In this document: positions 14,653-35,576 of the stretch, one piece after another
Layout: each line of letters begins with the position of its first letter
Numbering within the stretch: the stretch's first letter is position 1
IMG/VR virus record: IMGVR_UViG_3300013131_000024
Coordinates: 45,858-109,857 of that record
Source: a virus
Direction: 5' to 3' (one strand)
Length of the DNA stretch: 64,000 nt
Made by a program: the position numbers and the translations under genes
The notes under the pieces: model-generated
What the model was told of the DNA's origin: nothing
Databases searched by the model: none
What the model saw: only the letters and a program-made list of their open reading frames with translations

Positions 14653-15294
14653 ATGAAAGATTATTACATCTGCTCCGCAAAATATCTTATTCTAGATATA
14701 TCATATCCATATGATGAAATGTTAGACGAAGCTAGAAGACTTAGCCATCGTTTCGTACCTCACAGATCAGCTTTATCTAAAGGTTGGGAATCTTTAACAC
14801 TGCATGGCCTAGGTGAAGATAAAACCGGAAGTTTTGAAGATTATGGATACAAGAACGGAGGAGATGCAGCTAAAGATATGTATTGGACTAAGGCAGCAGA
14901 TGAATCTCCGATAACGAAAAATTTTTTATTGAATAATTTTCCAAGTAAAAGATTCGGTAGAATTCGTCTAATGAAACTTAAGGCAGGTGGGTTTATCGGA
15001 CTTCACTCTGACAGTAGTAGACCTGTTATAGAAAATATAAATTTAGTACTAAACAATCCTCAACATTGTTTATGGATATGGGGGGATGGCACCGAAGTGT
15101 TTATGGATCCTGGCAAAGCCTACGCTATGAATGTTCATTATCAACATAGTGTTTACAACAATAGCTATGAAGATAGATATCACATGATTGTAACAAGACA
15201 CGATTCAACTGATAAATGGAAAGAGATAGTACTGAAAGCATCTAAAGAAACAGGAGAATTAGGCTATTTTGAAAAAATTGATTATCTACCTTAA
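14653..15294 (+). CDS. aspartyl/asparaginyl beta-hydroxylase-like 2OG oxygenase
   Basis: 213 residues; first gene of the enzyme island. The C-terminal half has the jelly-roll metal triad: GLHSDSSRP (His118, Asp120) and NVHYQHSVYN (His165), with Arg175 in EDRYHMIV as the likely 2OG-binding residue. The core (RIRLMKLKAGGFIGLHSD, then WIWGDG) matches the aspartyl/asparaginyl hydroxylase branch. It would hydroxylate a peptide or small molecule using Fe(II), 2OG and O2; the substrate is unknown. The stop overlaps convergently with the next minus-strand gene by 9 bases. No ribosome site is visible. Confidence 0.82.
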   Translation: MKDYYICSAKYLILDISYPYDEMLDEARRLSHRFVPHRSALSKGWESLTLHGLGEDKTGSFEDYGYKNGGDAAKDMYWTKAADESPITKNFLLNNFPSKRFGRIRLMKLKAGGFIGLHSDSSRPVIENINLVLNNPQHCLWIWGDGTEVFMDPGKAYAMNVHYQHSVYNNSYEDRYHMIVTRHDSTDKWKEIVLKASKETGELGYFEKIDYLP

Positions 15295-16692
15295 TATTAT
15301 TGGCGATGTCCAGTCTTTGCTATGCCATTTTGGTTTATTAAGAATGTTGATATCTGTTAAATTAAATTTACAGACTCGATCTTTATAAACTTGCGTAGAT
15401 TTATCGCAAAATCCATCTGCAGCTCTAGCAGAGAATGAAAGAAAAATTTCCGGATTTTTTTCTTGTAATTTATAAATTAATCTGTTCTCGGCTGCTATTC
15501 TATACTTAAGACTTGAAGTATAAGAGAGTGGTGTATAATTAAATACATCACTAACATTATAAAAAGTATTTGCAGTATTATCTACCCAATCAAGATTATA
15601 TGTGCCTAAATAATTTATTAAAATAAAACCATACTGAAGATTTTTAATTCTGTTCCAAGTCATGTCCCAATCGTAGAATTTTGATTTAAATTTTTCCCAT
15701 AATATATTAGATTGTATATAATATTCTTCAGGTATATGTATAGGACCCGATGGAAAATTTTTGTTGATAAAACTTTTATAAAATTCTCCGTAATTTTCTC
15801 CACTCCATTGGCTTATCATTAAGCTCATAAATTGTAGACATTGTGGGTTCACATCGGTAATTACGACTTTGGTTTTATTTGTTGTACCTAGAATATTTAA
15901 ATTATTAATCCAATTAAAACCTGTGCCTGTAGTGATATATTGCTCAATAGGACCTTGACAATTTATATTATCTAATAGACTATCTGAATTGTGCGAAGGA
16001 ACAAAATTAGATCCGAAAAATTGATAATAATATAAGTCAGCAACTTCTTTTAAAAAAACATGATCGTGTTCATAATAAAGATATTTTTTATAGTTCCTTA
16101 TATCGCCTAAATCTATTATTTTTTTTTCCTTTAACAATAATTTAGATATAAGATTCCACCCGTGCTTTTTACCCACATATGTTTTTTTATTTTTTCCTGT
16201 TTTAATCCAAAGAGGAACATAATCGTCGTGTACATTTTCTTCACTTCTTATTGGCTCTATCTGATCATGATATTCATCTTGTTCATAGCCCATCTCTGGC
16301 ATATCGATATCGGAATAGTCATATAAATTTAAAATATAGAACTGATGATGTAATTCGTAATAATATTCTTTTCTATCTAAAATGTGTCCTGCTAAACTAA
16401 AATCTGTAGAACAAAGTTTTTCAACAGACTCAAATAGTTTATCGTTCATTTTTAAACTTGTACCAGTCGAAATAAAAACAGCATACTTGTATTCTTCATA
16501 TACTGCCATTTTAGCTAATAGATCTTCAGATTCTCCTATGAGAATATCAAACCTTTCATGACATTTAAATATAAATTGATCTGTAAGATTAATTGATATC
16601 TCTTTAGCCCAGTTAGTTTGACAATTATTAGTATTATCAATAATGCAAAATACTATGGGTTTTTTCTTGCTAACACTAAATTTTATTGCCAT
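15286..16692 (-). CDS. large unknown island protein with Rossmann-like motif
   Basis: 468 residues, last gene of the minus-strand module 17932-15286. The N-terminal 110 residues alternate beta strands and helices (PIVFCIIDN, YKYAVFISTGTSL) and look like a nucleotide-sugar or Rossmann-type domain. Near residue 250 is TTGTGFNWINNL followed by TKVVITDVNPQCLQFM, reminiscent of a SAM-binding glycine loop and acidic strand end. A glycosyltransferase-like plus methyltransferase-like two-domain protein is one reading. No family is firmly recognised. Its start overlaps the preceding GNAT-like gene by 10 bases. Confidence 0.7.
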   Translation of the reverse strand: MAIKFSVSKKKPIVFCIIDNTNNCQTNWAKEISINLTDQFIFKCHERFDILIGESEDLLAKMAVYEEYKYAVFISTGTSLKMNDKLFESVEKLCSTDFSLAGHILDRKEYYYELHHQFYILNLYDYSDIDMPEMGYEQDEYHDQIEPIRSEENVHDDYVPLWIKTGKNKKTYVGKKHGWNLISKLLLKEKKIIDLGDIRNYKKYLYYEHDHVFLKEVADLYYYQFFGSNFVPSHNSDSLLDNINCQGPIEQYITTGTGFNWINNLNILGTTNKTKVVITDVNPQCLQFMSLMISQWSGENYGEFYKSFINKNFPSGPIHIPEEYYIQSNILWEKFKSKFYDWDMTWNRIKNLQYGFILINYLGTYNLDWVDNTANTFYNVSDVFNYTPLSYTSSLKYRIAAENRLIYKLQEKNPEIFLSFSARAADGFCDKSTQVYKDRVCKFNLTDINILNKPKWHSKDWTSPIILR

Positions 16693-17249
16693 TTTGGAAA
16701 CCTACTAAGTTGTCGTAAAAATTTTTCTGCATCTAATTGCCATACAGTTTGTAATGTTTCTCTATAAAATACTTGTCCTATATTTTTTAGGACACCTTGT
16801 TTTTCTAGAGCAGGACCAAATATATTGTTAACTCGACGCTGTGTTCCTACATCACTTTCGTTAGATGTTATGTAAAGCTTAGACGTTGGTGGAGCCCATT
16901 CAATACATTTGGGTATTAGAAATTGAGAAGTAGGATTTTGATATTCGGTTATAACTCTAATAGTTCTTAAGGCTCGTCCATACGAACCCTCTATTTCATC
17001 AGTTAATACACACGTTCTGGCTGCTATTCTATAACTTCCTTCTCCCATAACATCTTCGAAACTATGAGCAGCTACACTTCCGATTGGTTTAGATTTAAAA
17101 TACAATATCCAGACCTGTTTTTCTTTTTCATTATTAAAGCAATCAACTAATTTTTTCTGGCTACAATTATTCAAAAAACCTTTAGCTTTAGCTCTTTCAT
17201 AGAAATAAGATAAATCTAGATCTTCAGACCAAGGAATTACGTAGAACAT
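16683..17249 (-). CDS. GNAT-like acyltransferase
   Basis: 188 residues. The order of elements suggests a GNAT fold: an N-terminal helix pair, VWILYFKSKPIGSVAAHSF (beta2-beta4 hairpin), YRIAARTCVLTD, a central helix with GSYGRALRTIRVITEYQ, and a C-terminal FYRETLQTVWQLD. The classical Q/RxxGxG/A acetyl-CoA loop is not obvious (GSYGRA may replace it), so the assignment is moderate. It may transfer an acyl group to a product made by the island. It overlaps both neighbours in the operon, so it is co-expressed with the kinase-like and large unknown proteins. Confidence 0.6.
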   Translation of the reverse strand: MFYVIPWSEDLDLSYFYERAKAKGFLNNCSQKKLVDCFNNEKEKQVWILYFKSKPIGSVAAHSFEDVMGEGSYRIAARTCVLTDEIEGSYGRALRTIRVITEYQNPTSQFLIPKCIEWAPPTSKLYITSNESDVGTQRRVNNIFGPALEKQGVLKNIGQVFYRETLQTVWQLDAEKFLRQLSRFPKWQ

Positions 17250-17932
17250 AAAATCTTATCGATAAATTCAGACGAATAGTTATTCCTAAAACTATTCCAA
17301 CAAAGTTTTTCAAGTATTTTAAAACTTTGAGGTTCCTCCCATTTTATATTTAAGATGTCAAGATGTTTTTTCATTTCATTTTGTCTTGTAGAATATATAT
17401 GACTTTCAACGTCTTTTATACTGATGTTAGGTTCATCTTCGTGATACGTGAAAAAATAATTTATACTTTTTAGTTTTCCTTGGACTATAAAATAGCTACT
17501 TGGATGCATACTGAATTTGTATAGTTTTAAAAATTTATGAGCTTTAATTATGTCAATCATCTGCTCTTGCCAATTTGGTAAAACGATATCATAATTTTCA
17601 GTAGCGCATCCTGCCTGCTCCCAAAAATCAACACCGTCTATTTGTAAATATATTTTTCTTTCAGTATAATCTATATCCAAAATAAAAGGAACATGCATAG
17701 GAAATGAACTGTGCATTATTTTTAGGAATTTAACTTCTCTTTCCCACTTTTCCTCCATCTTATCTGGATCAATAATCTCATTCATTCCTTTATGATAATT
17801 ATTGTCGTTATAATACCATTGGACAAATGTTTTTTTGTCTTTGCTTATTAAGCTAGTGTAAATTAAATTATTTCGACAATTTCCCTTACCCGGAACATTG
17901 TTGTAATAGTATTCGTATTTCATAGATAGCAT
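17237..17932 (-). CDS. kinase-like (probably inactive) protein, paralogue A
   Basis: 231 residues. The pattern resembles a compact protein-kinase/aminoglycoside-kinase fold. EREVKFLKIM is an alphaC-like helix, FILDIDYTERKIYLQIDG a hinge-like beta hairpin, and WQEQMIDIIKAHKFL the alphaE region. Then comes MHPSSYFIVQGKLKSINYF in the place of the catalytic loop (normally HxD....N) and DFG. The catalytic Asp and DFG Asp are not preserved here (HPSS, INYF), so it may be a pseudokinase or a different phosphotransferase. The paralogue is the minus-strand gene at 26454-27146. First gene of the leftmost minus-strand module. Confidence 0.55.
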   Translation of the reverse strand: MLSMKYEYYYNNVPGKGNCRNNLIYTSLISKDKKTFVQWYYNDNNYHKGMNEIIDPDKMEEKWEREVKFLKIMHSSFPMHVPFILDIDYTERKIYLQIDGVDFWEQAGCATENYDIVLPNWQEQMIDIIKAHKFLKLYKFSMHPSSYFIVQGKLKSINYFFTYHEDEPNISIKDVESHIYSTRQNEMKKHLDILNIKWEEPQSFKILEKLCWNSFRNNYSSEFIDKILCST

Positions 17933-17943
17933 ATTAATTTATC

Positions 17944-17951
17944 AATAAATA
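17944..17951 (+). promoter_or_regulatory. late-promoter-like motif AATAAATA
   Basis: A 7/8 match to TATAAATA, 17 bases before ATG 17969, in the short divergent gap between the minus-strand module and the plus-strand radical SAM module. No Shine-Dalgarno precedes the ATG. Confidence 0.4.
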
Positions 17952-17968
17952 TCTCGACCAAAATAAAA

Positions 17969-19447
17969 ATGTTAAAATGTATATTGTTCAATGTAGCCAG
18001 CGGAACTAATTTCGCAGGAAATGGTAGATCCGTTGGGGTTTACAGAATCTCTCACCATCTTCGAGAAGAAGGTTGGGATGTAGAAGTTATAGATTTTGCT
18101 AACGAATGGAGTTTAGAAGATCTTAAATTACTTGCTAAATCAAGGATGCATGGCGGACTAAAATTTTTTGGATTCAGTCATATGTATTCAATATGGACTG
18201 AAACCTTAGAGAAATTTTGTCAATGGATTAAAAAAGAGTATAGTGACATAGTTCTAATATCTGGCTCTAGTGTATCACCTCAATTTACGTCTATACATTT
18301 AGATTTTTATATTCAAGGATTCGGAGAAAACGCTATAACAGCTTTACTATCATGGTTGTTTGGCAACGGACCTAAACCAATTTTTTCTATATTCAAAGCA
18401 AACGGAAAACCATTAATTGCTGCCAACGACAATTATCCTTCATATCCAAGGAGAAACTTAAATGTAATTTACGAAGATAGAGATTTTATCGAATCAGAAG
18501 AGTGGTTAGGCATAGAATTTTCTAGAGGATGTAAATTTAGTTGTGATTTTTGTAATTTTCCAGTATTAGGCGTAAAAGGTGATTATACCAGAGATGCCGA
18601 AAATTTTGAAATACAGATAAAAGATGCTTATGATAGATTTGGTGTTACTAACTATTTGGTATCAGACGAAACATTTAATGATCGTACAGAAAAAATTACT
18701 AAATTTGCAGATATAATAGATAAATTAGATTTTAAACCTTGGTTTAGCGGATTTATACGTCCTGATCTCTTAATTAACAGACCGCAGGACAGAGAAGAAC
18801 TGCTACGCATGAATTTTTTAGGTCACCATTATGGTATAGAAAGTTTTAATTACAAAGCAGTTAAATCTATTGGAAAAGGTATGAATCCTGAAAAGGTTAA
18901 ACAGGGTCTTATAGATGTTAGAAAATATTTTGAAAATAATGGAATTAAAAAATACAGAGCTTTATTAACTTTTATCATAGGTCTACCTCATGAAACAAAA
19001 GATGACATTGAACGAACCACTAGATGGTTGATAGAAAATTGGCAAGGACAGTCATGGACTCCCTTCGTTCTGGAGATCCCCGTTGGGGAACTTAATAGAA
19101 AAAGTAAGATGAGCATGAACTATGAGAAATATGGCTATAGAATTTTTCAAGGAGAGCACAAACATCTAGAGTATAAACAGGCAAGAGTATCTAAAGATTT
19201 GTTAATTTGGGAGCATGATCATATGAATTATTTCGATGCCTATGATTTATTTTACAAAATGATAGAATCAAGAAATGATTTAAATAATAATTTTACTTTA
19301 GCTCCTTGGGATCTAGCTATGATAGGTCTTCCAGGAAACGTCTATGATCGACTCATGTTACACAATTCATGTTTACAGGACAAAATTATAGAAGAAAATA
19401 GAATAAAATTTATACAAAGATACATAAGGAAAAAATTAGAATGTTAA
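17969..19447 (+). CDS. radical SAM protein with B12-domain-like N-terminus, copy 1
   Basis: 492 residues. The N-terminal 170 residues resemble the cobalamin-binding (Rossmann) domain of B12-radical SAM enzymes: MLKCILFNV, then HHLREEGWDVEVIDF, IVLISGSSVSP and YIQGFGENAI. The DxHxxG cobalamin-ligand motif is not seen. The radical SAM core has the 4Fe-4S triad C-x3-C-x2-C in RGCKFSCDFCNFP (Cys188, 192, 195). SAM-binding-type segments follow (DETFNDRTEKITKF, GFIRPDLL). The reaction is unknown; homologues methylate or rearrange unactivated carbons. The stop overlaps the next paralogue by 7 bases. First gene of an eight-gene plus-strand module. Confidence 0.87.
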   Translation: MLKCILFNVASGTNFAGNGRSVGVYRISHHLREEGWDVEVIDFANEWSLEDLKLLAKSRMHGGLKFFGFSHMYSIWTETLEKFCQWIKKEYSDIVLISGSSVSPQFTSIHLDFYIQGFGENAITALLSWLFGNGPKPIFSIFKANGKPLIAANDNYPSYPRRNLNVIYEDRDFIESEEWLGIEFSRGCKFSCDFCNFPVLGVKGDYTRDAENFEIQIKDAYDRFGVTNYLVSDETFNDRTEKITKFADIIDKLDFKPWFSGFIRPDLLINRPQDREELLRMNFLGHHYGIESFNYKAVKSIGKGMNPEKVKQGLIDVRKYFENNGIKKYRALLTFIIGLPHETKDDIERTTRWLIENWQGQSWTPFVLEIPVGELNRKSKMSMNYEKYGYRIFQGEHKHLEYKQARVSKDLLIWEHDHMNYFDAYDLFYKMIESRNDLNNNFTLAPWDLAMIGLPGNVYDRLMLHNSCLQDKIIEENRIKFIQRYIRKKLEC

Positions 19448-20910
19448 AATGTATTTTGTTTAACGTTGACAACGGTCCCTTAACTAGAAGACCAATAGGA
19501 GCACATAGAATAGCTCATTTTTTAAGAGAAAACAATTGGGATGCTGAAGTAATAGATTTTTTCAAATTTTGGAGTTTTGATCAACTACAACAATTAGCTA
19601 AACAAAAATTTACTCCAGATGTTAAATGGATCGGAATTTCTTATCTTTTTTTGTCATCTCCTATCGAATCTGTTGATAATTTTTTCTTGTGGGTAAAAAA
19701 GGAATATCCACATATAAAAATCATAGTAGGAAGCCCGATACAGTATAATCAAAAATCTGTGTACGTTGACTATAATATATCTGGGTTCGGAGAAAACGCT
19801 CTGTTAGAACTATTAAAATATCTTTTCAGCAATGGAGCGTCACCGAAATTTTCGTTGGCTACCCATGCCGGAAAACAGATACTAGCTAATGAAATGTACC
19901 CTTCTTATCCTATGAAGAGCCTCAATATAATCTATGAAGATAGAGACTTCATCCAGCCAGAAGAGTGGCTAGGCATTGAATTTGCTAGAGGTTGTAAATT
20001 TAGTTGTGCTTTCTGTAATTTTCCAGTTATAGGTGTTAAAGGAGATTACTCTCGAGATGCGGAAGATTTCGAAGTACAGATCAAGGATGCCTATGATAGA
20101 TTTGGTGTAGAGAACTACTGGGTTTCAGATGAAACGTTTAATGATCGCACGGAGAAAATCACCAAGTTCGCTGATGTTGTTGAAACACTTTCATTTACTC
20201 CATATTTTACCGGATTTATTAGACCTGACCTGTTAATCATTAGACCACAAGATAGAGAAGAACTTCTGCGAATGAATTTTTTAGGTCACTTTTACGGCGT
20301 TGAAACTTTTAATCAAGAAACTGGAAAAATTATAGGAAAAGGTATGGATCCTATTAAAATGAAAGAAGGATTGATAGCTATACGTAAATATTATGAACAA
20401 TATGAAAATAGAAGATATCGGGGCAGTATAAGTTTAATTGCAGGGCTACCTTACGAATCGATTGACAGTATTTTACAAACCAAAGATTGGTTGATAGAAA
20501 ATTGGCAAGGACAAAATTTTACCATGTATCCATTAGAGATTGGAGTTGATGAATTTGATAATCCATCAAAAATAAGTAAAAATTGGAAAAAATATGGTTA
20601 TGTAGATGCATCTAACGATCCTGATATAGGACACCATTTCGCACACATAGGAAATATGCAAATGAATAAAATTTTTATTTGGAAAAATGATTTCACTAAT
20701 CTTAAAGAAGCCAGCGACATAGCGTATCTATATTGGAAAGAAAAATACAATACTGGAAACGATTTTAGACTTAGCAACTTTGCATTATTACATTTAGGAT
20801 TACCTAAAAACTTAGATGAAAAATTTTCTGTAAAAGATACCGAAGAGATAGAAATGTACTCGGCAAATAAAATTATACAAGATTATATAGAGAAAAAATT
20901 AAACAATTAG
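19441..20910 (+). CDS. radical SAM protein with B12-domain-like N-terminus, copy 2
   Basis: 489 residues, a tandem paralogue of the preceding gene. Both start MLKCILFNV and share long identical stretches around the core. Its cluster-binding triad is in RGCKFSCAFCNFP (Cys185, 189, 192), and DETFNDRTEKITKFADVV and GFIRPDLLI are conserved. The N-terminal Rossmann-type domain again lacks DxHxxG. C-terminal regions diverge more, suggesting different substrates. Duplication in tandem with a 7-base overlap implies joint function. Confidence 0.87.
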   Translation: MLKCILFNVDNGPLTRRPIGAHRIAHFLRENNWDAEVIDFFKFWSFDQLQQLAKQKFTPDVKWIGISYLFLSSPIESVDNFFLWVKKEYPHIKIIVGSPIQYNQKSVYVDYNISGFGENALLELLKYLFSNGASPKFSLATHAGKQILANEMYPSYPMKSLNIIYEDRDFIQPEEWLGIEFARGCKFSCAFCNFPVIGVKGDYSRDAEDFEVQIKDAYDRFGVENYWVSDETFNDRTEKITKFADVVETLSFTPYFTGFIRPDLLIIRPQDREELLRMNFLGHFYGVETFNQETGKIIGKGMDPIKMKEGLIAIRKYYEQYENRRYRGSISLIAGLPYESIDSILQTKDWLIENWQGQNFTMYPLEIGVDEFDNPSKISKNWKKYGYVDASNDPDIGHHFAHIGNMQMNKIFIWKNDFTNLKEASDIAYLYWKEKYNTGNDFRLSNFALLHLGLPKNLDEKFSVKDTEEIEMYSANKIIQDYIEKKLNN

Positions 20911-20920
20911 TTACGAAAAA

Positions 20921-21988
20921 ATGAAAAAATTGTCAGATACTCTTTCTGTTTGTGAATTTTGTTATAGACATGTGCCAGCCATACGATTTGAAAGAGATGG
21001 AGGAATCTGGTTGTGGAAAAAATGTAAATGGCATGGAGAATCAGAACATTTAGTCGAGCCTGATGCAAGTTTTTATTTAAATTATACCTACATAAGAAAA
21101 CAATTAGAAAGTTACATGATTGATATAACCAATAAATGTAATCTCACTTGTCCAAACTGTCATCAAGAACCGAATAATAATTCAAAAGATTTACCTATAA
21201 ATTTTTTTATAGATATCATATCATCATGGCCAGATAACGGTTGGCCAGTAGCACTTTGTGGGGCAGAACCGACTATTAGAAAAGATTTACCTGAATTTGT
21301 AGAAGCCATTAATTCTATGCCAAGAAAGAAACGTGATATTATTATCCTCACCAACGCTGTGCGACTGGCTGATGAAAATTATACGCAGCAATTTATTGCC
21401 TACAACAATATCTACTGGACTATTGGGTTAAACCATCCTGAATATCAAGGGCATAAGGTTAGAGAAAAACAAATTAAAGGAATTGAAAATTTAGTAAAAT
21501 ATAAACAAAAAATTAAGAATATCAGTTACACTTTAGAAATACTAGGACAAATGGAGTATTGTCTTGAAGAGTTACAAGAATTTTCAAAAAAATATTGTAA
21601 GGCCTTTAGAGTAAGGACAGGTGTTGATATTGGCAGATATCCAGGAGGTCCAAAAGTGTATATGTCAGATTTAGTCAAAGAAATGAATAGAGTGGCAGAA
21701 AAAAATAAATGGCCAATTGAAAAAATTAATGACCAAGGTAATAGAGCTCATTACGCTGTGTTAATTAATGATGTGCCAGTAAAAATTATTCAATGGCCAG
21801 ATGCACAAACATTAGATTTAAGAGAAATACAAACGGAAGCTTTTGGAGATTTTGTACCTAACAAACCAGCATCTCCGCTGATCCATCAAATTATTTTACG
21901 AGATGCACACATTAACAAAGGTCTTCCTCTATATGATACCATTCCACAGGAATATTTAGATAATTATGGCAATCATAGGAATCAATAA
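20921..21988 (+). CDS. radical SAM protein with Cys-rich N-terminal domain (Tes/COG1964-like)
   Basis: 355 residues. The N-terminal Cys-rich segment is CEFCYRHVPAIRFERDGG, then KKCKWHGESEHLVEPDASFY. This is the layout of the MJ0619/tetraether-synthase group, in which such a zinc- or Fe-binding domain precedes the radical SAM core. The core triad is NKCNLTCPNCH (Cys73, 77, 80). LCGAEPTIRKDLPEF is the expected second segment. Known relatives form C-C bonds between lipid tails or methylate pterin-type substrates; no substrate can be assigned here. It ends by overlapping the next gene by 23 bases. Confidence 0.82.
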   Translation: MKKLSDTLSVCEFCYRHVPAIRFERDGGIWLWKKCKWHGESEHLVEPDASFYLNYTYIRKQLESYMIDITNKCNLTCPNCHQEPNNNSKDLPINFFIDIISSWPDNGWPVALCGAEPTIRKDLPEFVEAINSMPRKKRDIIILTNAVRLADENYTQQFIAYNNIYWTIGLNHPEYQGHKVREKQIKGIENLVKYKQKIKNISYTLEILGQMEYCLEELQEFSKKYCKAFRVRTGVDIGRYPGGPKVYMSDLVKEMNRVAEKNKWPIEKINDQGNRAHYAVLINDVPVKIIQWPDAQTLDLREIQTEAFGDFVPNKPASPLIHQIILRDAHINKGLPLYDTIPQEYLDNYGNHRNQ

Positions 21989-22775
21989 TTTACCTTATAT
22001 AGATATGGAACCATACTTAGATATGGATATCTTTGAAAAATTACAGCCTGAAATCTACACAGGATTTTCGTTGGCTAGAGAATATGCCAAAGAAGGAACT
22101 TGGATGCAGCCTGGATTTTCTATGAAAGATATGAGCTATATTATAAATTGGAAACCAATATATAAAGCAATGGAAGAGTTTCAATCATTGCCGGACGACA
22201 ACCCAATTAAAAAGGAAGGAATAAAGTTAATGCCATCCGATTTCAAAGATTTTCGTCAAAGAAATATTTTTACAAGATATTTAAAAATGGCTATGGGAGC
22301 ATACGATCCTTACATTTATTATTTTTTATGGGAAGAAGGCGATTGGAATAACAGAGAAAAAGAACGTAAGATGACCGACGAAGCAAAATATTTTCCTTCT
22401 GTTGTAGAATGGGTATTGAATCTTCAAAAAACACAGATATTTGAACATATTGGTAGAGTAATATTTTTCCACTGTGAGGCAGACGGCATTCCATTTGAAC
22501 ATAGAGATCTAGATGCCCAAAACGGCATAGACATAATTAAACCTCATCGAAACGAATTTATACATATTAGACCTGATACAAAAAAATCATTTTATATTTG
22601 GGATCCAAAAAAGAAAAATAAAATTTATCTTAATACAAGAGCAGCATGGTGGAATGACGTGGACTGGCATGGAGGAGAGAGGATTATGGAACAGAGTTAT
22701 AGCTTACGTGTAGATGGCAGGTTTACCGATGAGTTTCGGAAACGTTTAGGTATAAATCACTTGGATAATTATTAA
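21966..22775 (+). CDS. double-stranded beta-helix (2OG/Fe(II)-type) protein, paralogue A
   Basis: 269 residues. A helical N-terminal half is followed by a jelly-roll with a candidate metal triad: FEHRDLD (His179, Asp181) and DWHGGE (His235), with SLRVDGR supplying Arg248. The segment NEFIHIRPDTKKSFYIWD sits between as core strands. It is a paralogue of the next gene, with the same layout and the same HGGE and (S/A)(L/I)R(V/I)DG motifs. Likely an Fe(II)-dependent oxygenase acting on an island product. It shares a stop-start overlap with both neighbours. Confidence 0.7.
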   Translation: MAIIGINNLPYIDMEPYLDMDIFEKLQPEIYTGFSLAREYAKEGTWMQPGFSMKDMSYIINWKPIYKAMEEFQSLPDDNPIKKEGIKLMPSDFKDFRQRNIFTRYLKMAMGAYDPYIYYFLWEEGDWNNREKERKMTDEAKYFPSVVEWVLNLQKTQIFEHIGRVIFFHCEADGIPFEHRDLDAQNGIDIIKPHRNEFIHIRPDTKKSFYIWDPKKKNKIYLNTRAAWWNDVDWHGGERIMEQSYSLRVDGRFTDEFRKRLGINHLDNY

Positions 22776-23548
22776 TGATAGGACTATACGGAAAAACTCA
22801 TTTTGAATTAGATGAATTTATAGATTTAACTGAGTTTGACAATATTCAATTGGATATTTTTAGAGGTATAGCCATAGCTAAATCTCTTGCAGATCATGGA
22901 TATCTAATATCCATGAAAATGTATAACGACGAGGATCTAAGTTCAACTCTTTCTGTTTTACCACTAATGGATGCATACAGAGATTTTTTGTCTCTACCTG
23001 AAAATAATGATGTGAAAATAATCGGAGACAAAATTTATAGAGAACATGGCTATAATGCATTAGCAACTTTTTTAAAATATACATATAAAGCTCACGACTT
23101 ATGTTCCCATTACTTATTTTGGGATTATCATCCGAACTGGAGATTAAACAAACATAATAGACAATTAACCAAATTATCAGAACATTTCTCACCATTAATT
23201 AATTACATTGACAGTTTAATTAGAAAAGAAATATTCATTAATATTGGAAGAGCGTATCTAATATCTTTTGACTCTAAAGGTCATTCTTTTGAACACAGAG
23301 ATCCGCACTTAGATCCAGATGTATCAGAAGATGTTTTTCCTGAATTCATACATATAAGACCTAATACAAAAAGACCGTTTTACATTTTTGATCATGAAAA
23401 AAATAAAAAACATTATGTTATGTCTAGAATAGGTTGGTGGAATGATAGAGACATACATGGCGGTGAGGCAATATCTGAACCAACATATGCTATTCGCATT
23501 GACGGAATTTTTACGGATAAATTTAAAAAACAATTATGCATTTTATAG
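22775..23548 (+). CDS. double-stranded beta-helix (2OG/Fe(II)-type) protein, paralogue B
   Basis: 257 residues, about the same architecture as the gene before it. Metal-ligand candidates are HSFEHRDPH (His-x-Asp) and DIHGGEAIS (His), with YAIRIDG for the Arg. PEFIHIRPNTKRPFYIFD aligns with the equivalent region of paralogue A. It starts on the last base of the previous stop and overlaps the next gene by 13 bases. Probable Fe(II)/2OG oxygenase of unknown substrate; it could form a heteromer with paralogue A. Confidence 0.7.
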   Translation: MIGLYGKTHFELDEFIDLTEFDNIQLDIFRGIAIAKSLADHGYLISMKMYNDEDLSSTLSVLPLMDAYRDFLSLPENNDVKIIGDKIYREHGYNALATFLKYTYKAHDLCSHYLFWDYHPNWRLNKHNRQLTKLSEHFSPLINYIDSLIRKEIFINIGRAYLISFDSKGHSFEHRDPHLDPDVSEDVFPEFIHIRPNTKRPFYIFDHEKNKKHYVMSRIGWWNDRDIHGGEAISEPTYAIRIDGIFTDKFKKQLCIL

Positions 23549-24039
23549 ATAATTATAAAGATTGGATAGATTCGTCTTTAACTAATTACCTTTTGAACAA
23601 CGAAGGAATCTTAAGGCCAAATATAGGAACTAATCCCGATGTCGAAGAATTTAAAAATGCTGAAAAAGCAGGATACGATCTTAGAAAAACATGGTGGCAC
23701 ATTTATGAACCAAATATTTTGCCATTTACAATTAAATTACCTATAGAATCGAATAGATCGTCGATATGGTGGTTCATTAAACTACTACCGGGAGGAATGA
23801 TGCCCATGCATCGAGATCCTCATGTAAGATTTGATAATGTAAAAAATCCTACAAGGTACTGGATGCCTCTACAAGATTACGAACCGGGCCATATTTTTGT
23901 CTATAATAATGTCGTTCTTACCGATTACAAAGCTGGAGATCTTTGGAGCTACGGGGACAGCGATGAGCTTCATGGCGCTTGCAACATCAGTTATATTCCA
24001 AGGTTAACATTTCTTTTTACGATATATGACATCCCATGA
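23536..24039 (+). CDS. 2OG/Fe(II) oxygenase-like, small jelly-roll protein, copy 1
   Basis: 167 residues. WWFIKLLPGGMMPMHRDPH gives His92 and Asp94; DELHGACNIS gives His146; the following PRLTFLFTIYD supplies Arg156. This complete HxD...H...R set on a minimal jelly-roll indicates a 2OG/Fe(II) oxygenase. Between them RYWMPLQDYEPGHIFVYNN is shared with the gene at 24632, its closest paralogue. It overlaps both neighbours by a few bases. Confidence 0.78.
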   Translation: MHFIDNYKDWIDSSLTNYLLNNEGILRPNIGTNPDVEEFKNAEKAGYDLRKTWWHIYEPNILPFTIKLPIESNRSSIWWFIKLLPGGMMPMHRDPHVRFDNVKNPTRYWMPLQDYEPGHIFVYNNVVLTDYKAGDLWSYGDSDELHGACNISYIPRLTFLFTIYDIP

Positions 24040-24635
24040 TATACACTTTAAATTTAAAATATGATGTGGAAGAATCTAGAAAATATCTAGAAATTCTCAA
24101 CGAAAAATTTTATAATCTTCATTGGTTCTATAGAAAACATCATAATGAACCAAGAGTCATAGAGAAAAAAAATGCTATGGATGATGTACACGGATGGGGT
24201 CTACAAACAATATACGATGATCAATTTTTTCCCTACCATTGTGATATAGATCCTCATAACGAAACAGCCGAATATTTTAAAGATACTCCTATGGTATTTG
24301 GATTTTTCTATAGATTCAAAAATTTATTCAAAAATCCTTATAGATCTTTCTTGATGAATTTCCCAGGACATCATCATATAGGAAAATGGCTTCCGACTAA
24401 ACCCTTGCACGGAAAGATTTTTCTTCCGATATATTCTAATGAAGAATCTGTTTTAATAACTTATAGTCAACCAATGGTTCAAATGAAATTTGAAGTGGGG
24501 AAAATATATTTGATAGATATGACGACACACCACGGTGAATTCAGAAACGATGGGGATTCTAAGATTTCTTTTATAACCTTTAATGTTCTTCCTGAGACCT
24601 TTAATAAAATTTTAGAATTACAAGGAACAGTATGA
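24036..24635 (+). CDS. 2OG/Fe(II) oxygenase-like jelly-roll protein, divergent
   Basis: 199 residues. Metal-ligand candidates are FPYHCDIDPHN (His68, Asp70) and DMTTHHGEFRND (His165 or 166). The position usually holding the 2OG-binding Arg reads SKISFITFNV, so Lys may replace Arg or another co-substrate is used. It lies between two clear paralogues of a different subgroup (23536 and 24632), each overlapping it by 4 bases. Substrate unknown. Confidence 0.65.
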   Translation: MIYTLNLKYDVEESRKYLEILNEKFYNLHWFYRKHHNEPRVIEKKNAMDDVHGWGLQTIYDDQFFPYHCDIDPHNETAEYFKDTPMVFGFFYRFKNLFKNPYRSFLMNFPGHHHIGKWLPTKPLHGKIFLPIYSNEESVLITYSQPMVQMKFEVGKIYLIDMTTHHGEFRNDGDSKISFITFNVLPETFNKILELQGTV

Positions 24636-25156
24636 GGTATATAGAAAATTATAACTCTTGGATCACTAGCGATCTCATGAACCATTTAGAAACACATGAC
24701 GGTGATACTAGATACGTCTATCAACCAGAACGTTGGAAAACAGGAAACTCTATTTTAGAAGAATTCAATGAAAGATGCAGAAAAGCATACTCAAAAAATC
24801 CACCATGTTTTCAACAGTTCAATTCTAATTCTAAAGACATGGAAAATTTTCCAATAATTTTACCAGACCTCCCTGAAAAAAGATCTAACTGTCATTGGTG
24901 GTTTGTTAAATTACTTCCCGGACAATTCCAAGCTATGCACGTTGATCCTCATTTATTAGAGGTAAAAAATCCGCTGAGATATACCTTATTTCTACAAGAT
25001 TTTATACCGGGGCACATATTTGTATGGGATGATAAAATAATTACAAATTATAAAAAGGGAGATATGTATGAATGGAGTGATCCTATGATAGTTCACGGTC
25101 CGGCCAATATATCTTTTGAAAACAGATACACGTTGCAGATAACTCTTTATGATTGA
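24632..25156 (+). CDS. 2OG/Fe(II) oxygenase-like, small jelly-roll protein, copy 2
   Basis: 174 residues. WWFVKLLPGQFQAMHVDPH provides His103 and Asp105, MIVHGPANIS provides His155, and ENRYTLQITLYD provides Arg165. It is the paralogue of the gene at 23536 (shared WWF(I/V)KLLPG, PGHIFV, H....NIS). Last gene of the plus-strand module; it converges with the next module with 10 bases of overlap. Confidence 0.78.
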   Translation: MRYIENYNSWITSDLMNHLETHDGDTRYVYQPERWKTGNSILEEFNERCRKAYSKNPPCFQQFNSNSKDMENFPIILPDLPEKRSNCHWWFVKLLPGQFQAMHVDPHLLEVKNPLRYTLFLQDFIPGHIFVWDDKIITNYKKGDMYEWSDPMIVHGPANISFENRYTLQITLYD

Positions 25157-25740
25157 TATCCAAGAATATGCAACAGATAATTCGATTCTAAGCCACCATT
25201 AATACCAGTATGCCACTCTCTATAGTTCTTCCATTTAAAAATAGAACCCCAGGGAACTTCATACAGATAGTCGGTGCCTATAATTAATATGTGTCCCATA
25301 GTAGGATTATTTAGAAAAATACTATATCTTACTGGAGTACCTTTTTTTAAATACTCTGTCTCGTCGTCGTCTACATCCCAATGATGCGGCGCATAAAATC
25401 CAGGATCTAATCTGCTGATCCATGCTCGATGAACTCCACCTAGTCTAAGATAAAAAGATACATCATCTACTAATTCTTGTTCGAAATCTTCTCCTGGATA
25501 ATAGTTGGTCCATCTTATAGAGGAAGGATTGAAATTGGCATTTTTCCATATTTTATAGATCTCATTATAGTTAGATTCGCTTTTATTCCATCTATCATAA
25601 TCTGTTGTAAGAATAGTTCCCGATCGACTAGAAAGATTATTAACGATTTGAGATAAATCTTTTCTTCTATATGTGCTAAGAAAGACTGAACTTTTTAAAT
25701 TTAGTAATCTTAAATCATAGTGTGATGATAAATTTTGCAT
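25147..25740 (-). CDS. 2OG/Fe(II) oxygenase-like jelly-roll protein (minus module)
   Basis: 197 residues from the ATG at 25740, which overlaps the upstream stop as TAATG on the minus strand (a longer start at 25764 is possible). FYAPHHWDVDD supplies His120 and Asp122; REWHTGING supplies His177. The Arg normally found near the end is absent (GLESNYLLHILG), as in the gene at 24036. TPVRYSIFLNNPTMGHILI matches the equivalent strand pair of the plus-strand paralogues. Substrate unknown. Confidence 0.68.
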   Translation of the reverse strand: MQNLSSHYDLRLLNLKSSVFLSTYRRKDLSQIVNNLSSRSGTILTTDYDRWNKSESNYNEIYKIWKNANFNPSSIRWTNYYPGEDFEQELVDDVSFYLRLGGVHRAWISRLDPGFYAPHHWDVDDDETEYLKKGTPVRYSIFLNNPTMGHILIIGTDYLYEVPWGSIFKWKNYREWHTGINGGLESNYLLHILGYQS

Positions 25741-26453
25741 TATTCTAAATACCCAAAAGCCCATAATCTCTCATGGCACCACCAGCAATTCCCGCAGTGA
25801 GTACCTAAATGTAAATGATTCTCACAACTCCTAGTTTTTACGAACAATTCTTTTTCTATGTCTAAAAATCTATACATTTCTGCAATATCTTTTTTATTAA
25901 GATTTACGAACGGAACATATGCTCTATCATCAATAGAGACATCATCGGCCCTAATATTAATATCTACTACTATAAATCTTTGATCTGTATTTTCATCCAT
26001 TGGTATTGAAATACCATAAAGAGATTTTTCTATCTCATCGCTTCGGAATTTATTATGCCAATCCGGCTGCTGATCAGGAAAATCTTTCCAAACTTTGTAA
26101 GGAGGAAATTTTGTAAGACCTACATAAATTAAATCAACTTCGCGAATATCTAATTTTTTCCTATAAAGATCAAAAAGAGATTGAGGACGTTGTAAAACTA
26201 CTGTGTCTTTAATATATGAAAAATTCTTATTACCTGTTAATCTTGAACAAGTTTCTACTATCATATCCACATGACATTCCATGGCAGGTCTTCTTTCGGG
26301 AGCAAACATTGTATAGATATGTAAATGTTGTTTTAGATTTTTCATTAAAATATATAATAGTAATGCACTATCTGCCCCACCAGATACACTCACACCTACT
26401 GATCTGTCTTCGTATAAGATGATCGGATTACCGTTTACATATATCGTTCGCAT
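25740..26453 (-). CDS. QueC-like PP-loop ATP pyrophosphatase, copy 1
   Basis: 237 residues. The PP-loop SVSGGADSALL (Ser24-Ser29) binds ATP for adenylation of a carboxylate or amide. The C-terminal zinc knuckle SCENHLHLGTHCGNCWWCHER has the Cys...CGxCxxCxxR layout of QueC, the enzyme that makes 7-cyano-7-deazaguanine. Other ExsB/asparagine-synthetase-type enzymes share the PP-loop, so the natural substrate here may differ. Paralogue: plus-strand gene at 27855. It overlaps the oxygenase-like gene downstream (TAATG). Confidence 0.82.
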   Translation of the reverse strand: MRTIYVNGNPIILYEDRSVGVSVSGGADSALLLYILMKNLKQHLHIYTMFAPERRPAMECHVDMIVETCSRLTGNKNFSYIKDTVVLQRPQSLFDLYRKKLDIREVDLIYVGLTKFPPYKVWKDFPDQQPDWHNKFRSDEIEKSLYGISIPMDENTDQRFIVVDINIRADDVSIDDRAYVPFVNLNKKDIAEMYRFLDIEKELFVKTRSCENHLHLGTHCGNCWWCHERLWAFGYLE

Positions 26454-27146
26454 TTAATTTCTCAAATTTAAATTTTTATAGATAGCAGGAAATGGATTTT
26501 CTAACCACGTTTTTCCTAATTGCCGATTCATAGTTAGTTCAAAAAAAACTTTGAAATCTATCATGCCATCGGCTGTAGTCGCTTCTTGGAATCTTCCTGT
26601 GGAATCAATTCCTATCATATCTTTTATTTTAGAACATTCTATATATCTTTCTTCTATGCCGACACAGGAATAAAAATCAAAGGTTTTTATGACATCATTC
26701 TTTAAGTAAAAGCAATGAGGATATAATGCTAATTTATAATATCCTTCTGAAATTATATCATTTACAATTTTAAAAATTTGTTCTCGCCAGTCGGAGCAGT
26801 AAACTTCTAATGGTTTTTTATGTTTAAACAATACATGATTAATTGTTGTATCCCCCCACTCTAAGAAAATTTTTCGATTGATATAATCAATATCATAAAG
26901 AATTGGTGCCCACAAATATCCTTGAAATTTTTGTATGTGAAAACATTCTCTTTCAAAGAAGAAATCAATAACTTCACTCGAAATGTCTTGAGCATTGTCT
27001 TTTCTATAGGAACTATTCTCATCCCATAACATACACATGACATTATTTTCAGGATTTACCAAAGGAGTGTACATAACATTAGTACTCCATGTACTACCAT
27101 CATCTATTACCTTATAAAAATATTTCCAATTAGTAGTATCAATCAT
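26454..27146 (-). CDS. kinase-like protein, paralogue B
   Basis: 230 residues, related to the gene at 17237-17932 by the same order of blocks. These are PILYDIDYINRKIFLEWGD (hinge-like hairpin), WREQIFKIVNDII, and YKLALYPHCFYLKNDVIKTFDFY in the catalytic and DFG region. Here FDF retains an Asp at the DFG-like position, but the HxD catalytic Asp is not evident (ALYPHC). So it is a degenerate or atypical phosphotransferase. It is encoded between a 2OG oxygenase-like gene (overlap 4 bases) and the QueC-like gene. Confidence 0.55.
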   Translation of the reverse strand: MIDTTNWKYFYKVIDDGSTWSTNVMYTPLVNPENNVMCMLWDENSSYRKDNAQDISSEVIDFFFERECFHIQKFQGYLWAPILYDIDYINRKIFLEWGDTTINHVLFKHKKPLEVYCSDWREQIFKIVNDIISEGYYKLALYPHCFYLKNDVIKTFDFYSCVGIEERYIECSKIKDMIGIDSTGRFQEATTADGMIDFKVFFELTMNRQLGKTWLENPFPAIYKNLNLRN

Positions 27147-27811
27147 ATAACATTAACAATAAAATTTTTACCTAAGATATCCGACAGCTGAGAAATTTCA
27201 TTTTTTTCTATAAGAAGTTCTACAACATTATCATAAATTTTAAAATTTGAAATTTTGCCTGATTTATTAGCTTGATTGAGCCACTTACTAGCTGTTTGAT
27301 CAAATTCAAATCTTTGGTCGTCTGCTGATAGATCTGAGGTTATTGTTATTCTAATGGGATTTTCTAATTTATTTTTTATAAGTAATTTTCTTACAACTAG
27401 TTGTACTCTGTGTATTCTTCCTAAATTAGCAGCACTGTGCAATCTGCCAGCATCCATTTCGTACCAAAATCCATCTTGAAAGATTTTATGTACAACATTG
27501 TTTTCTAGATCTATAAAATATGACTCCTCACTTTGTATATTAAGATGATATCTATCATCTATATCAGCATGAGATTGATAACATGTAGCAGGATATAAGA
27601 CTATTATTCTAGCTTCACCATGAGGATAGGGCAAAGTTTTAAGAATATTATTCCATAAGGTGTTTTTATATTCATCTTTAATCGACCATGAATCGTAAAA
27701 AAAATCCCCGTTTGGTTGATTTAATGTTGTTTTATCGTGGAAGATAAAACTTTCATCGGCACCTTCTTTGATTAAATTTAAGTTTACAGAATGACAAAGT
27801 TTAACTAGCAT
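27143..27811 (-). CDS. aspartyl/asparaginyl hydroxylase-like 2OG oxygenase
   Basis: 222 residues. GEARIIVLYPATCYQSHADID supplies His81 and Asp83, AGRLHSAANLG supplies His125, and RIHRVQLVVRK supplies Arg135, a complete 2OG/Fe(II) set in the beta-hydroxylase style. The remaining C-terminal 80 residues form an extra domain of unknown type (EKNEISQLSDILGKNF). First gene of the minus-strand module 27811-25147; a divergent plus-strand module starts about 40 bases away. Confidence 0.78.
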   Translation of the reverse strand: MLVKLCHSVNLNLIKEGADESFIFHDKTTLNQPNGDFFYDSWSIKDEYKNTLWNNILKTLPYPHGEARIIVLYPATCYQSHADIDDRYHLNIQSEESYFIDLENNVVHKIFQDGFWYEMDAGRLHSAANLGRIHRVQLVVRKLLIKNKLENPIRITITSDLSADDQRFEFDQTASKWLNQANKSGKISNFKIYDNVVELLIEKNEISQLSDILGKNFIVNVI

Positions 27812-27843
27812 AGTGAAAAATATTTATGTACTATTATTATCGT

Positions 27844-27850
27844 GTAAATA
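27844..27850 (+). promoter_or_regulatory. late-promoter-like motif GTAAATA next to a start codon
   Basis: Partial match to TATAAATA, ending 4 bases before ATG 27855. No ribosome site is visible. Suggestive only. Confidence 0.25.
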
Positions 27851-27854
27851 TATT

Positions 27855-28541
27855 ATGGAACTTTATCTAGATCCAAATTGGAAAAAAATCGGAATCAGTA
27901 TCAGCGGTGGTGCAGATAGTGCTCTATTAGCATTTCTAATCTGTTCAAATACAAATGCAGACATACATTTTACTAATCAAATACGTATGTGGAGGACACG
28001 ACCTTGGCAAGAACATGTAGCAGATACTGTTATCGATTGGTTCAAAAATCGATTTAAAAATAATTTCTATCTTCATAGAAATTTAATACCACCAGAATTA
28101 GAGTGGTCCGAAAATGGTCCGACATTTATCGACGAATACGGAAAAATAAAAAGTGGTAATCGAGTAATATTGAGATCTCACAATGAATATGTGGCTCACA
28201 GATATAAATTAGATGCATTGTATGGAGGAGTAAATCAAAATCCATCGATCAATATCGAAGGTTCTCTAAAAGATAGAGACGAGGAAAACTCTTATCTATC
28301 TCCGTATTTTATACATGATGGGATTCATATTTGTCATCCGTTAGTAAATGTGAAAAAAGACTTTATTATAAAACAATATGTTAAACATGAGATACTCGAT
28401 CTCCTTGACATTACTCGTAGTTGCGAGGGAGAATTTGAGGATATAAACTATAAAACATACATACCCGGACAAGTTGTTCCAACTTGCGGAAAATGTTTTT
28501 GGTGCAAAGAAAGAGAATGGGGCATCGAACATGCAAAGTAA
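27855..28541 (+). CDS. QueC-like PP-loop ATP pyrophosphatase, copy 2
   Basis: 228 residues from ATG 27855 (an upstream GTG at 27813 is less likely). The PP-loop is SISGGADSALL (Ser17-Ser22). The C-terminal zinc site is SCEGEFEDIN...PTCGKCFWCKERE. Compared with copy 1 there is an extra 20-residue insertion between the first Cys and the CGKC block. Probable ATP-dependent amidation or nitrile-forming enzyme of the QueC type; the substrate is unknown. It overlaps the twitch radical SAM gene by 11 bases, so the two products may act in sequence. Confidence 0.82.
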   Translation: MELYLDPNWKKIGISISGGADSALLAFLICSNTNADIHFTNQIRMWRTRPWQEHVADTVIDWFKNRFKNNFYLHRNLIPPELEWSENGPTFIDEYGKIKSGNRVILRSHNEYVAHRYKLDALYGGVNQNPSINIEGSLKDRDEENSYLSPYFIHDGIHICHPLVNVKKDFIIKQYVKHEILDLLDITRSCEGEFEDINYKTYIPGQVVPTCGKCFWCKEREWGIEHAK

Positions 28542-34962: not shown

Positions 34963-35576
34963 TATACTTTACCTATGATCATGAATCTTTTATATAAAGA
35001 TAATTCTAATTCTCTCGACCAAAGAACTTGGATATTAGATTGTTTTATAAATTCTTCTAGAGAACCGGCTGTCCTCACATGTTCTGGTATGTTATAGTTG
35101 TTGCTTTGTAAAACAATTATACTGTTTTGAGGTTGGCCACTGAGCCATAGATCGTATTGATCCTGCGTAATATGTTCGCAACTGGTATTGATAATGATAT
35201 CAGCATCACTTCGCATAATACACATGTCTGCGGTTACTGCTCTAAAACGACCTCCCATTTCTTCTTTCTTATTCATCATAGTTGCTATAGATTCACAGTC
35301 TGGATCTATATCAATGCTACGAATATTACTGATAGGAATATCGCTTTGGAACAACATACTGGCCAACACTCCTACCCATCCGCCGTGTACGTCGACACTT
35401 AATGGAAAGTCTAAAACTTTGTTTATTTCAGTATAGATATAATATTCTAAGTTTTCAATTAACCATTCTTTGCTTTGTATTTGTCCTCGCCAGAATGCAT
35501 CAAGGGTACGCATAGGATCCTTGCTTTCACGAATAGCACACATCCAATAATGTAAATGTTCTGTATCAATTTGCAT
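34962..35576 (-). CDS. class I SAM-dependent methyltransferase-like
   Basis: 204 residues from the ATG at 35576, which overlaps the upstream radical SAM stop region by 11 bases; a longer frame to 35645 is rejected. Rossmann motifs: PLSVDVHGGWVGVLASMLF (motif I, glycine loop), IRSIDIDPDCESI (motif II, acidic strand end), then FRAVTADMCI and DIIINTSCEHI (motif IV). A small-molecule or protein methyltransferase is likely; the acceptor is unknown. It lies between two radical SAM genes in the minus-strand module. Confidence 0.78.
   Translation of the reverse strand: MQIDTEHLHYWMCAIRESKDPMRTLDAFWRGQIQSKEWLIENLEYYIYTEINKVLDFPLSVDVHGGWVGVLASMLFQSDIPISNIRSIDIDPDCESIATMMNKKEEMGGRFRAVTADMCIMRSDADIIINTSCEHITQDQYDLWLSGQPQNSIIVLQSNNYNIPEHVRTAGSLEEFIKQSNIQVLWSRELELSLYKRFMIIGKV

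Follow-up and report, generated by a model that had tools for sequence, protein, structure and literature searches.

The eight overlapping plus-strand genes at positions 17,969 to 25,156 are tentatively explained as one co-translated stretch of a larger, hypervariable, virus-specific modification island. The island belongs to a large, T4-like virus of bacteria and lies in a window (the whole stretch of DNA analysed) of 64,000 nucleotides. As a whole it may encode a mosaic pathway that functionalises C-H bonds of an amino-acid or peptide group, with a probable use at the virus-host interface. The probability of this reading, island and pathway taken together, is put at roughly 0.45.

Layout and conservation of the island

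The island is marked by a drop in GC content (30.4-32.4%, against 38-41% in both flanks) and is retained in mosaic form by contigs of related viruses. Its 24 kb hold ten radical SAM genes and about nine genes for jelly-roll (DSBH) proteins, besides genes for two kinase-fold proteins and for proteins of the PP-loop and SGNH-like types. The features are as follows, with fractions referring to long relatives.

14653..38926 (both strands): AT-rich island holding the eight genes, ~24 kb; GC drop and mosaic conservation
14653..15294 (+): AH13, Asp/Asn beta-hydroxylase-like 2OG oxygenase; PF05118 40.4 bits, cut-off 22.6; 34/53
15286..16692 (-): GT14 family, 468-aa accessory protein; 36/53
16683..17249 (-): GN, GNAT-like acyltransferase, constant core; weak FeeM similarity; 51/53
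17237..17932 (-): K1, kinase-fold pseudokinase, constant core; model, fold match and alignment; 53/53
17969..19447 (+): B12-domain-type radical SAM enzyme, copy 1; Radical_SAM 54.3 bits
19441..20910 (+): B12-domain-type radical SAM enzyme, copy 2; Radical_SAM 42.2 bits
20921..21988 (+): HMPTM-type radical SAM enzyme, N-terminal zinc ribbon; PF23545 45.3 bits (cut-off 27), PF04055 35.6 bits
21966..22775 (+): D1, 2OG/Fe(II) DSBH oxygenase; AF2 model and H179-x-D181...H235...R248; 53/53
22775..23548 (+): D1 paralogue, accessory; HxD...H...R intact in alignment
23536..24039 (+): D2-family DSBH oxygenase, copy a; HxD...H...R in alignment
24036..24635 (+): D18-family DSBH, HxD lost; alignment of 18 members
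24632..25156 (+): D2-family DSBH oxygenase, copy b, conserved downstream partner of D1; invariant H103, D105, H155, R165
25147..25764 (-): D4, DSBH oxygenase (HxD...H); alignment; 45/53
25740..26453 (-): QueC-like PP-loop ATPase; PF06508 34 bits, cut-off 22
26454..27146 (-): K2, second kinase-fold protein; profile against kinases and Bud32, E 4e-4 to 6e-4; 49/53
27143..27811 (-): AH8, Asp/Asn-hydroxylase-like DSBH; PF05118 16.7 bits, below cut-off 22.6; 41/53
27813..28541 (+): second PP-loop ATPase, QueC-like zinc site; PF06508 17.4 bits, below cut-off
28474..29787 (+): twitch-domain radical SAM; NF033640 340 bits, cut-off 170
29780..30676 (+): radical SAM (R9); Radical_SAM 51.1 bits
30663..31505 (+): SGNH-hydrolase-like protein; GCSFT motif by eye, no match in Pfam or NCBIfam
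31492..32466 (-): radical SAM (R16); 45.5 bits
32463..33878 (-): twitch-domain radical SAM; NF033640 405.7 bits, cut-off 170
33871..34962 (-): radical SAM with SPASM (R12); Radical_SAM 32.9 bits, SPASM 22.2 bits
35566..36570 (-): radical SAM, paralogue of 31492 (42.7% identity); 45.5 bits
37943..38926 (-): radical SAM, right end of the island; 46.8 bits
52451..52771 (+): A-type Fe-S carrier, outside the island; PF01521 62.9 bits, cut-off 26.3

A fibre-like gene (13204, judged by its repeats) adjoins the left edge, and 'fib' families flank the islands of relatives. A thymidylate synthase gene also adjoins the island. A QueD-like protein is encoded at 47007, and an AhcY-like protein, recognised by eye, is encoded elsewhere in the same virus (G000 30633-31919). 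Rfam gave no credible match at the right boundary.

All eight open reading frames were verified. Their order, three radical SAM genes followed by five jelly-roll genes with overlaps of 1-23 bases and a single 10-base gap, matches exactly the description in the first-pass annotation; the seven junctions are overlaps of 7, 23, 1, 13, 4 and 4 bases and the gap. The translational coupling proposed there is well supported, and the coupling of 20921, 21966 and a D2-family gene is kept across dozens of viral loci. In related viral loci the overlap between the HMPTM-type gene and D1 is kept in 36/36 cases, the D1-to-D2 junction is kept within 2 bases in 36/36, and K1 and GN overlap or abut in 58/58. 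Median dN/dS values of the families tested are 0.03-0.07, indicating strong purifying selection. These ratios and the conserved junctions argue that the arrangement is not a product of chance. A promoter scan found 70 sites where 76 +/- 8.5 were expected, a result that neither favours nor disfavours internal promoters.

The eight genes had also been taken for a single, self-contained pathway. Comparison of gene order with related viral loci does not support one such module: the B12-type radical SAM pair, 22775, 23536 and 24036 are gained and lost independently in relatives, and the genes that constantly accompany 21966 are found beyond the limits of the block, in many cases on the opposite strand. 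Across 78 related viral loci GN (16683), K1 (17237) and D1 (21966) are constant, usually joined by 26454, 25147, 27143 and 28474. The conserved coupled unit is 20921-21966-24632, with the HMPTM family directly upstream of D1 in 35/78 loci and D2 directly downstream in 36/78; the B12-type pair, 22775 and 24036 are cassettes that a locus may lack. The full eight-gene order recurs in L025 and L056 only, with inserts, and no gene fusions among island families were found.

Cassettes in the islands of relatives include a tryptophan halogenase, an aminotransferase, an AMP-binding enzyme, a sulfotransferase, TauD, a methyltransferase and SDRs; an amidinotransferase-like protein was noted there by eye. 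Each of 13 related virus records contains 8-17 radical SAM matches. K1 is present in 14/14 virus records, and GN matched 287 viral stretches. None of the 50,697 deposited phage records searched contains a core family. Two alignment scans of 84,980 prokaryote genomes, which required exact short patterns and so miss distant kin, found no cellular kin of K1 or GN.

Radical SAM enzymes, jelly-roll proteins and the core

The first three genes are radical SAM genes, as first annotated: each scores over the Radical_SAM cut-off and has a CxxxCxxC motif. In 17969 and 19441 a B12-binding domain is indicated in the expected N-terminal place, but at 24.1 and 24.8 bits it falls below the 32.1-bit cut-off, so that neither qualifies as a cobalamin-dependent (class B) methylase. 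Both zinc-ribbon and radical SAM models place 20921 in the HMPTM type. This protein is not Tes or TrsS, scoring 59.5 and 66.3 bits on NCBIfam equivalog models with cut-offs of 450 and 490.

All three proposed paralogous pairs are borne out, with 51.7% identity for 17969/19441, 33.0% for 21966/22775 and 38.6% for 23536/24632. Phylogenies had been suggested for dating the duplications. The 17969/19441 split predates the separation of this virus from L025/L056. The D1 tree, a quick-search tree with long branches, puts 22775 in a deep separate clade, so that it is not a recent tandem copy of 21966; its close orthologues occur only in L025/L084-type islands.

None of the five jelly-roll proteins of the block was matched by Pfam. 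HxD...H...R is present in 21966, 22775, 23536 and 24632, and 24036 lacks HxD, so that just four of the five genes counted in the first-pass annotation look catalytic. D1 is assigned to the 2OG/Fe(II) oxygenases by model and motif: its AF2 model (pLDDT 87.5) has the fold (VIA Z 11.1) and the motif is near-invariant. The assignments of 22775, 23536 and 24632 come from the motif. In 24036 HxD is replaced by G-K-W-L-type residues, a loss within its own clade that is shared with the orthologues in L019, L025 and L038, and judging from the alignment this protein is probably a non-catalytic jelly roll.

D1 is the best-conserved protein of the island; its identity across 79 viral loci is mostly 67-75%. 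Its structure resembles PHD2, AspH, L-proline cis-4-hydroxylase and a beta-hydroxylase of nucleoside-antibiotic biosynthesis, and its PDB matches include the nucleic-acid demethylase ALKBH5. Because the matches range from a nucleic-acid demethylase to hydroxylases of proteins and amino acids, the substrate cannot be read from the fold. The D2 and D4 profiles also match the beta-hydroxylase weakly, and 11/22 GN members weakly match FeeM (E 0.01-0.5 for both similarities).

The K1 model (pLDDT 90.4) matches Bud32 and kinases in Foldseek (E 4e-6; VIA Z 12). In 21 sequences S141, S146 and N158 are invariant where the catalytic Asp (HxD), Asn and DFG-Asp are expected; K1 is thus kinase-like in fold and does not qualify as an active protein-kinase-like kinase. 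The 468-residue protein at 15286 has no match in Pfam or PDB and its fold was not found. The A-type Fe-S carrier family is also present in 4/7 relatives tested.

Proposed pathway and competing explanations

In the proposed pathway the island products would act in sequence on a single substrate bearing amino-acid or peptide groups. Radical SAM enzymes and 2OG/Fe oxygenases would functionalise unactivated C-H bonds, the putative cobalamin-type enzymes performing C-methylation-like steps and the HMPTM- and twitch-type enzymes other steps. PP-loop and GNAT-like proteins would form amide or acyl bonds, and kinase-fold proteins would be scaffolds or substrate binders. The virus would supply the Fe-S clusters, presumably through the A-type carrier, and exchange of accessory cassettes between viruses would vary the final structure. 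A bias toward amino acids or peptides is suggested by the Asp/Asn-hydroxylase match of 14653, the likenesses of D1, the cassettes of relatives and the FeeM-like GNAT. Use at the virus-host interface, as tail-fibre decoration or host-surface change, is the weakest step of the proposal; the grounds for it are the fibre-like genes next to the island and a variability like that of published host-recognition clusters, and the tie to the fibres is one of position only. The radical SAM and DSBH proteins could also catalyse unrelated reactions. In an unlikely narrower form, the virus would modify its own virion protein, e.g. a tail fibre, adding hydroxyl, methyl, halogen and acyl groups through a chain of radical SAM and 2OG enzymes with a pseudokinase as their scaffold; cassette swaps would vary the encounter with the host.

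Modification of a host-surface glycan (LPS or capsule) that blocks co-infection, as proposed for pelagimyophage host-recognition clusters, is unlikely. Those hypervariable islands combine tail fibres, glycosyltransferases and radical SAM cassettes (PMC7029224), and SGNH-like proteins, the SDRs of relatives and the adjacent fibre-like gene would fit. However, no island ORF matches a glycosyltransferase in Pfam, a GT4-like protein (G000, by eye) and another at 48403 lie outside the island, Glycos_transf_2 is missing from 7/8 virus records, the present virus (G000) included, and the enzyme families lean toward amino-acid or peptide chemistry. A decidedly unlikely explanation is that infection yields a small diffusible product derived from an amino acid (a signal, an inhibitor or a metallophore). 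The halogenase, aminotransferase, AMP-binding enzyme and amidinotransferase-like protein of relatives and the FeeM-like GNAT speak for it. Against it, the island shows neither an exporter nor a carrier protein or assembly-line domain, and a lytic virus would gain little obvious from such a product.

Hypermodification of DNA or RNA bases is improbable, although QueC-like PP-loops in the island, the QueD-like protein, the adjoining thymidylate synthase and the ALKBH5-like matches of D1 point toward it. TGT/DpdA (PF01702) is absent in 8/8 records, which may be incomplete, while a control matched 14/14; Dpd-type 7-deazaguanine DNA modification is rejected on this result. The score of 25740 on the QueC equivalog TIGR00364 is 25.2 bits, far under the cut-off of 150.3, and 27813 is not listed. 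Searches for HMU-DNA-kinase (HMUDK) and TET/JBP gave no match, but their controls were silent too, so these null results are no evidence of absence. An auxiliary role in host metabolism, such as supply of the PQQ cofactor for methanol oxidation, is highly improbable. Radical SAM genes of T4-like freshwater viruses have been read as PQQ-related (PMC7678222) and the present virus encodes the AhcY-like protein, but 20921 scores 24.3 bits on the PqqE model TIGR02109 (cut-off 381), which speaks strongly against PQQ biosynthesis by this enzyme. Dozens of other enzymes would be left unexplained, and the island is too variable for a fixed cofactor.

The C-H functionalising chemistry of the island is very dense for a virus, and its GN-K1-D1 core is found only in uncultured viruses among those searched. 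If the substrate of the proposed pathway were found, it would explain the many radical SAM genes of large T4-like lake and sea viruses, a pattern reported since 2017, and would also yield new enzymes. Two clean handles for locating the complex are the conserved pseudokinase and the HxD-less jelly roll.

Comparison with known systems

The literature already describes both T4-like viruses rich in radical SAM genes and host-recognition islands that contain radical SAM cassettes. The first-pass annotation considered the combination of radical SAM and O2-dependent hydroxylation steps unusual, but it is not unprecedented: the polytheonamide pathway has both, in the epimerase PoyD and the Fe/2OG hydroxylase PoyI (PMC10373908). 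In that proteusin RiPP both act on one peptide, and enzyme classes are all that is shared. No precursor peptide, protease or exporter is seen here, and the overlapping island genes leave no space for a small precursor-peptide ORF; a substrate protein encoded farther away may nevertheless exist.

The T4-like marine virus TARA_ERS488813_N000010 (Nishimura et al. 2017) has 12 radical SAM genes, an A-type Fe-S carrier, cas4, grx and paaD (PMC5332604), and so resembles the present virus in its many radical SAM genes and virus-encoded carrier; gene order, DSBH partners and a conserved core are not reported in the part of the description used for this comparison. The Lake Baikal T4-like Methylophilaceae viruses VP_139 and VP_266 (Coutinho et al. 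2020; PMC7678222), likewise compared by description, share freshwater origin, radical SAM genes and SAM-cycle genes. Their radical SAM genes were read as PQQ synthesis, whereas 20921 is not PqqE.

The pelagimyophage and cyanomyophage host recognition cluster (HRC; Zaragoza-Solas et al. 2020; PMC7029224) is hypervariable and contains tail fibres, glycosyltransferases and radical SAM cassettes. It differs in that radical SAM and DSBH genes dominate here, glycosyltransferases are not found inside, and the constant GN-K1-D1 core is not described for it. The HRC sits between VrlC and gp14; the likeness here is one of mosaic content and fibre-like neighbours. Both are large hypervariable islands of T4-like viruses with fibre genes or fibre-like genes, in which radical SAM cassettes are gained and lost.

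The island and its surroundings

The eight plus-strand ORFs described in the first-pass annotation (17969-25156; ORFs are named by window start) are present and as tightly packed as it claimed, with junction overlaps of 7, 23, 1, 13, 4 and 4 bases and a single 10-base gap. The block sits inside an island (14653-38926) of 30-32% GC, with both flanks at 38-41%. The island contains ten Radical_SAM matches and the following features.

Other proteins encoded in the island
14653 and 27143: Asp-hydroxylase-like proteins
16683: GNAT-like protein (GN)
17237 (K1) and 26454 (K2): kinase-fold proteins
25147: double-stranded beta-helix (DSBH, jelly-roll) protein
two QueC-like PP-loop proteins
three SGNH-like proteins (named by eye)

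The exact left edge is marked by TATAAATA at 14641, the T4 late-promoter consensus, 12 bases upstream of the 14653 ATG; such octamers total three in 64 kb. Immediately right of the island end (approximately 38990-39100) is a tRNA-Leu-like sequence. It has a T-loop, an ACCA end and an acceptor stem in which all 7 bp pair, is not called by ARAGORN or Rfam, and may represent a degenerate tRNA or a former insertion site. To the left are 29 clustered tRNA genes representing most amino acids (3459-10913), another 2OG-oxygenase-like protein weakly matched in PHROGs (10853-11494) and, at 11541-12080, a small protein whose Cx5R motif resembles that of phosphatases. A few kb to the right are two tandem fibre-like genes, 52.8% identical (44380-46346), then a QueD-like protein (47007-47576; PHROG 2389), in a record where no TGT/DpdA was found. 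Region 53121-60524 encodes a tail-fibre-like protein of 2467 aa and, after it, one of 564 aa that has a stretch in common with Tenacibaculum phage pT24.

The window belongs to a record of 109,857 bases. In the remainder are genes, named by eye, for ribonucleotide reductase, for tail and PAAR-like proteins, for chaperones and for an AhcY-like protein. This content, with matches to structural-protein PHROGs, suggests a T4-like virus. DnaK-, GroES-, GroEL-, Hsp20- and ClpS-like genes, also named by eye, are consecutive at 25293-30089 of the full record (G000:C1). An A-type Fe-S carrier is encoded at 52451-52771; its family occurs in 5 of 8 records tested, and it likely supplies clusters to the viral radical SAM (rSAM) enzymes.

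Radical SAM, jelly-roll and kinase-fold proteins

ORFs 17969 and 19441 are rSAM proteins with an N-terminal B12-binding-like domain below the Pfam cut-off; 20921 is an rSAM protein carrying the HMPTM zinc ribbon (Pfam). A tree of the B12 rSAM proteins places 17969 among the first copies from two related viral loci, L025 and L056, and 19441 among their second copies (each 100/100). This paralogue pair therefore predates the divergence of these viruses.

None of the five downstream proteins has a Pfam match. The model of 21966 (input alignment of 17 sequences; pLDDT 87.5) is a 2OG/Fe(II) DSBH, with a VIA-align Z of 11.1 to 6n1f across 165 residues and of about 10 to PHD2, AspH, L-proline cis-4-hydroxylase and the beta-hydroxylase of a nucleoside-antibiotic pathway. 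The last is also the best, weak match (E about 0.3) of the 23536/24632 and 25147 profiles. In alignments, HxD...H...R is near-invariant in the 21966 family and also present in 22775, 23536 and 24632. Within the paralogue pair 21966/22775, 22775 falls in a deep clade separate from the 21966 orthologues, in a quick tree with long branches.

Of the five proposed jelly-roll proteins, 24036 stands apart. Across 24036 and the orthologues from L019, L025 and L038, HxD is replaced by GKWL, GKFL, GRWL and GKWT; distant relatives keep HxD at that site. Judged by these alignments, ORF 24036 reads as a jelly roll without iron, so that the block comprises three rSAM enzymes, four likely oxygenases and one probable pseudo-oxygenase. 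A 21966 paralogue of a related virus (L056:10804-11487), with HxD and the distal His gone, is a second jelly roll that has either decayed or been repurposed.

The K1 model is confident (pLDDT 90.4), and its kinase fold is identified by Foldseek (Bud32, E 4e-6) and VIA (Z 12). The sites of the catalytic Asp, Asn and DFG Asp, assigned by eye from the loop pattern, are Ser141, Ser146 and Asn158 in 21/21 sequences. The median dN/dS of 0.06 indicates strong purifying selection, and K1 is thus, on predicted fold and sequence, a maintained pseudokinase.

Conservation and gene order in related viruses

Scanning IMG/VR with 21966 gave 79 loci, the majority at 67-75% identity. Among the 53 of at least 18 kb, several of them near-copies of one another so that counts are non-independent, K1 and the 21966 family occur in 53, GN in 51, K2 in 49, the HMPTM rSAM in 47, the twitch rSAM (NF033640) and the 25147 family in 45 each, the 27143 family in 41, the 23536/24632 family in 40, the B12 rSAM in 30 and the 24036 family in 17. 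K1 and GN are contiguous in 58/58. The immediate upstream neighbour of the 21966 family is the HMPTM rSAM in 35/78 loci, and the 23536/24632 family lies downstream in 36/78. The former junction overlaps in 36/36 and the latter is within 2 bases in 36/36, although starts were set mechanically and overlap lengths are upper bounds.

The full order (two B12 rSAM, two 21966-family genes, then the 24036 family between two 23536/24632-family genes) is found only in L025 and L056, both with inserted genes, and in part in L084. A second, GN-anchored sample (287 stretches matched, 80 kept) has the same families in other orders. Cassettes seen only in relatives encode a tryptophan halogenase, a class-III aminotransferase, an AMP-binding enzyme, a sulfotransferase, TauD dioxygenases, methyltransferases and an amidinotransferase-like protein (by eye). 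Each of 13 related virus records has 8-17 Radical_SAM matches. K1, GN, 17969, 21966 and 24632 had no match among 50,697 phage records, and a pattern-first search of 84,980 prokaryote genomes, of correspondingly limited sensitivity, found neither K1 nor GN.

A possible shared pathway and known systems

Coupling, conservation and enzyme classes are borne out, but the common pathway first proposed is inferred. Block and island enzymes may share one, because they belong to classes that functionalise C-H bonds, form amides or transfer acyl groups, and because several top structural matches to the 21966 model act on amino-acid residues or peptides. K1 and 24036, which keep their folds and have lost catalytic residues, point to a complex in which some members act as scaffolds. 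The product may serve the virus-host interface, since the island adjoins fibre-like genes and resembles published host-recognition clusters.

No description of the core formed by GN, K1 and the 21966 family, of the paired kinase-fold proteins or of the DSBH-rSAM order was found in the open-licence literature. The rSAM genes of T4-like Baikal viruses were read as PQQ synthesis (Coutinho 2020, PMC7678222), a reading unsupported by model scores for this virus. A T4-like marine virus of 183 kb was described as encoding 12 rSAM proteins together with an A-type Fe-S carrier (Nishimura 2017, PMC5332604), and rSAM cassettes distinguish hypervariable host-recognition clusters (Zaragoza-Solas 2020, PMC7029224). 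The island is real and conserved. It is ordinary in kind, being one of the hypervariable islands of T4-like viruses, but unusual in content. Joining rSAM chemistry to O2-dependent hydroxylation, which had been thought unusual, has a precedent in the polytheonamides, where rSAM enzymes and an Fe/2OG hydroxylase act within a single pathway (PMC10373908).
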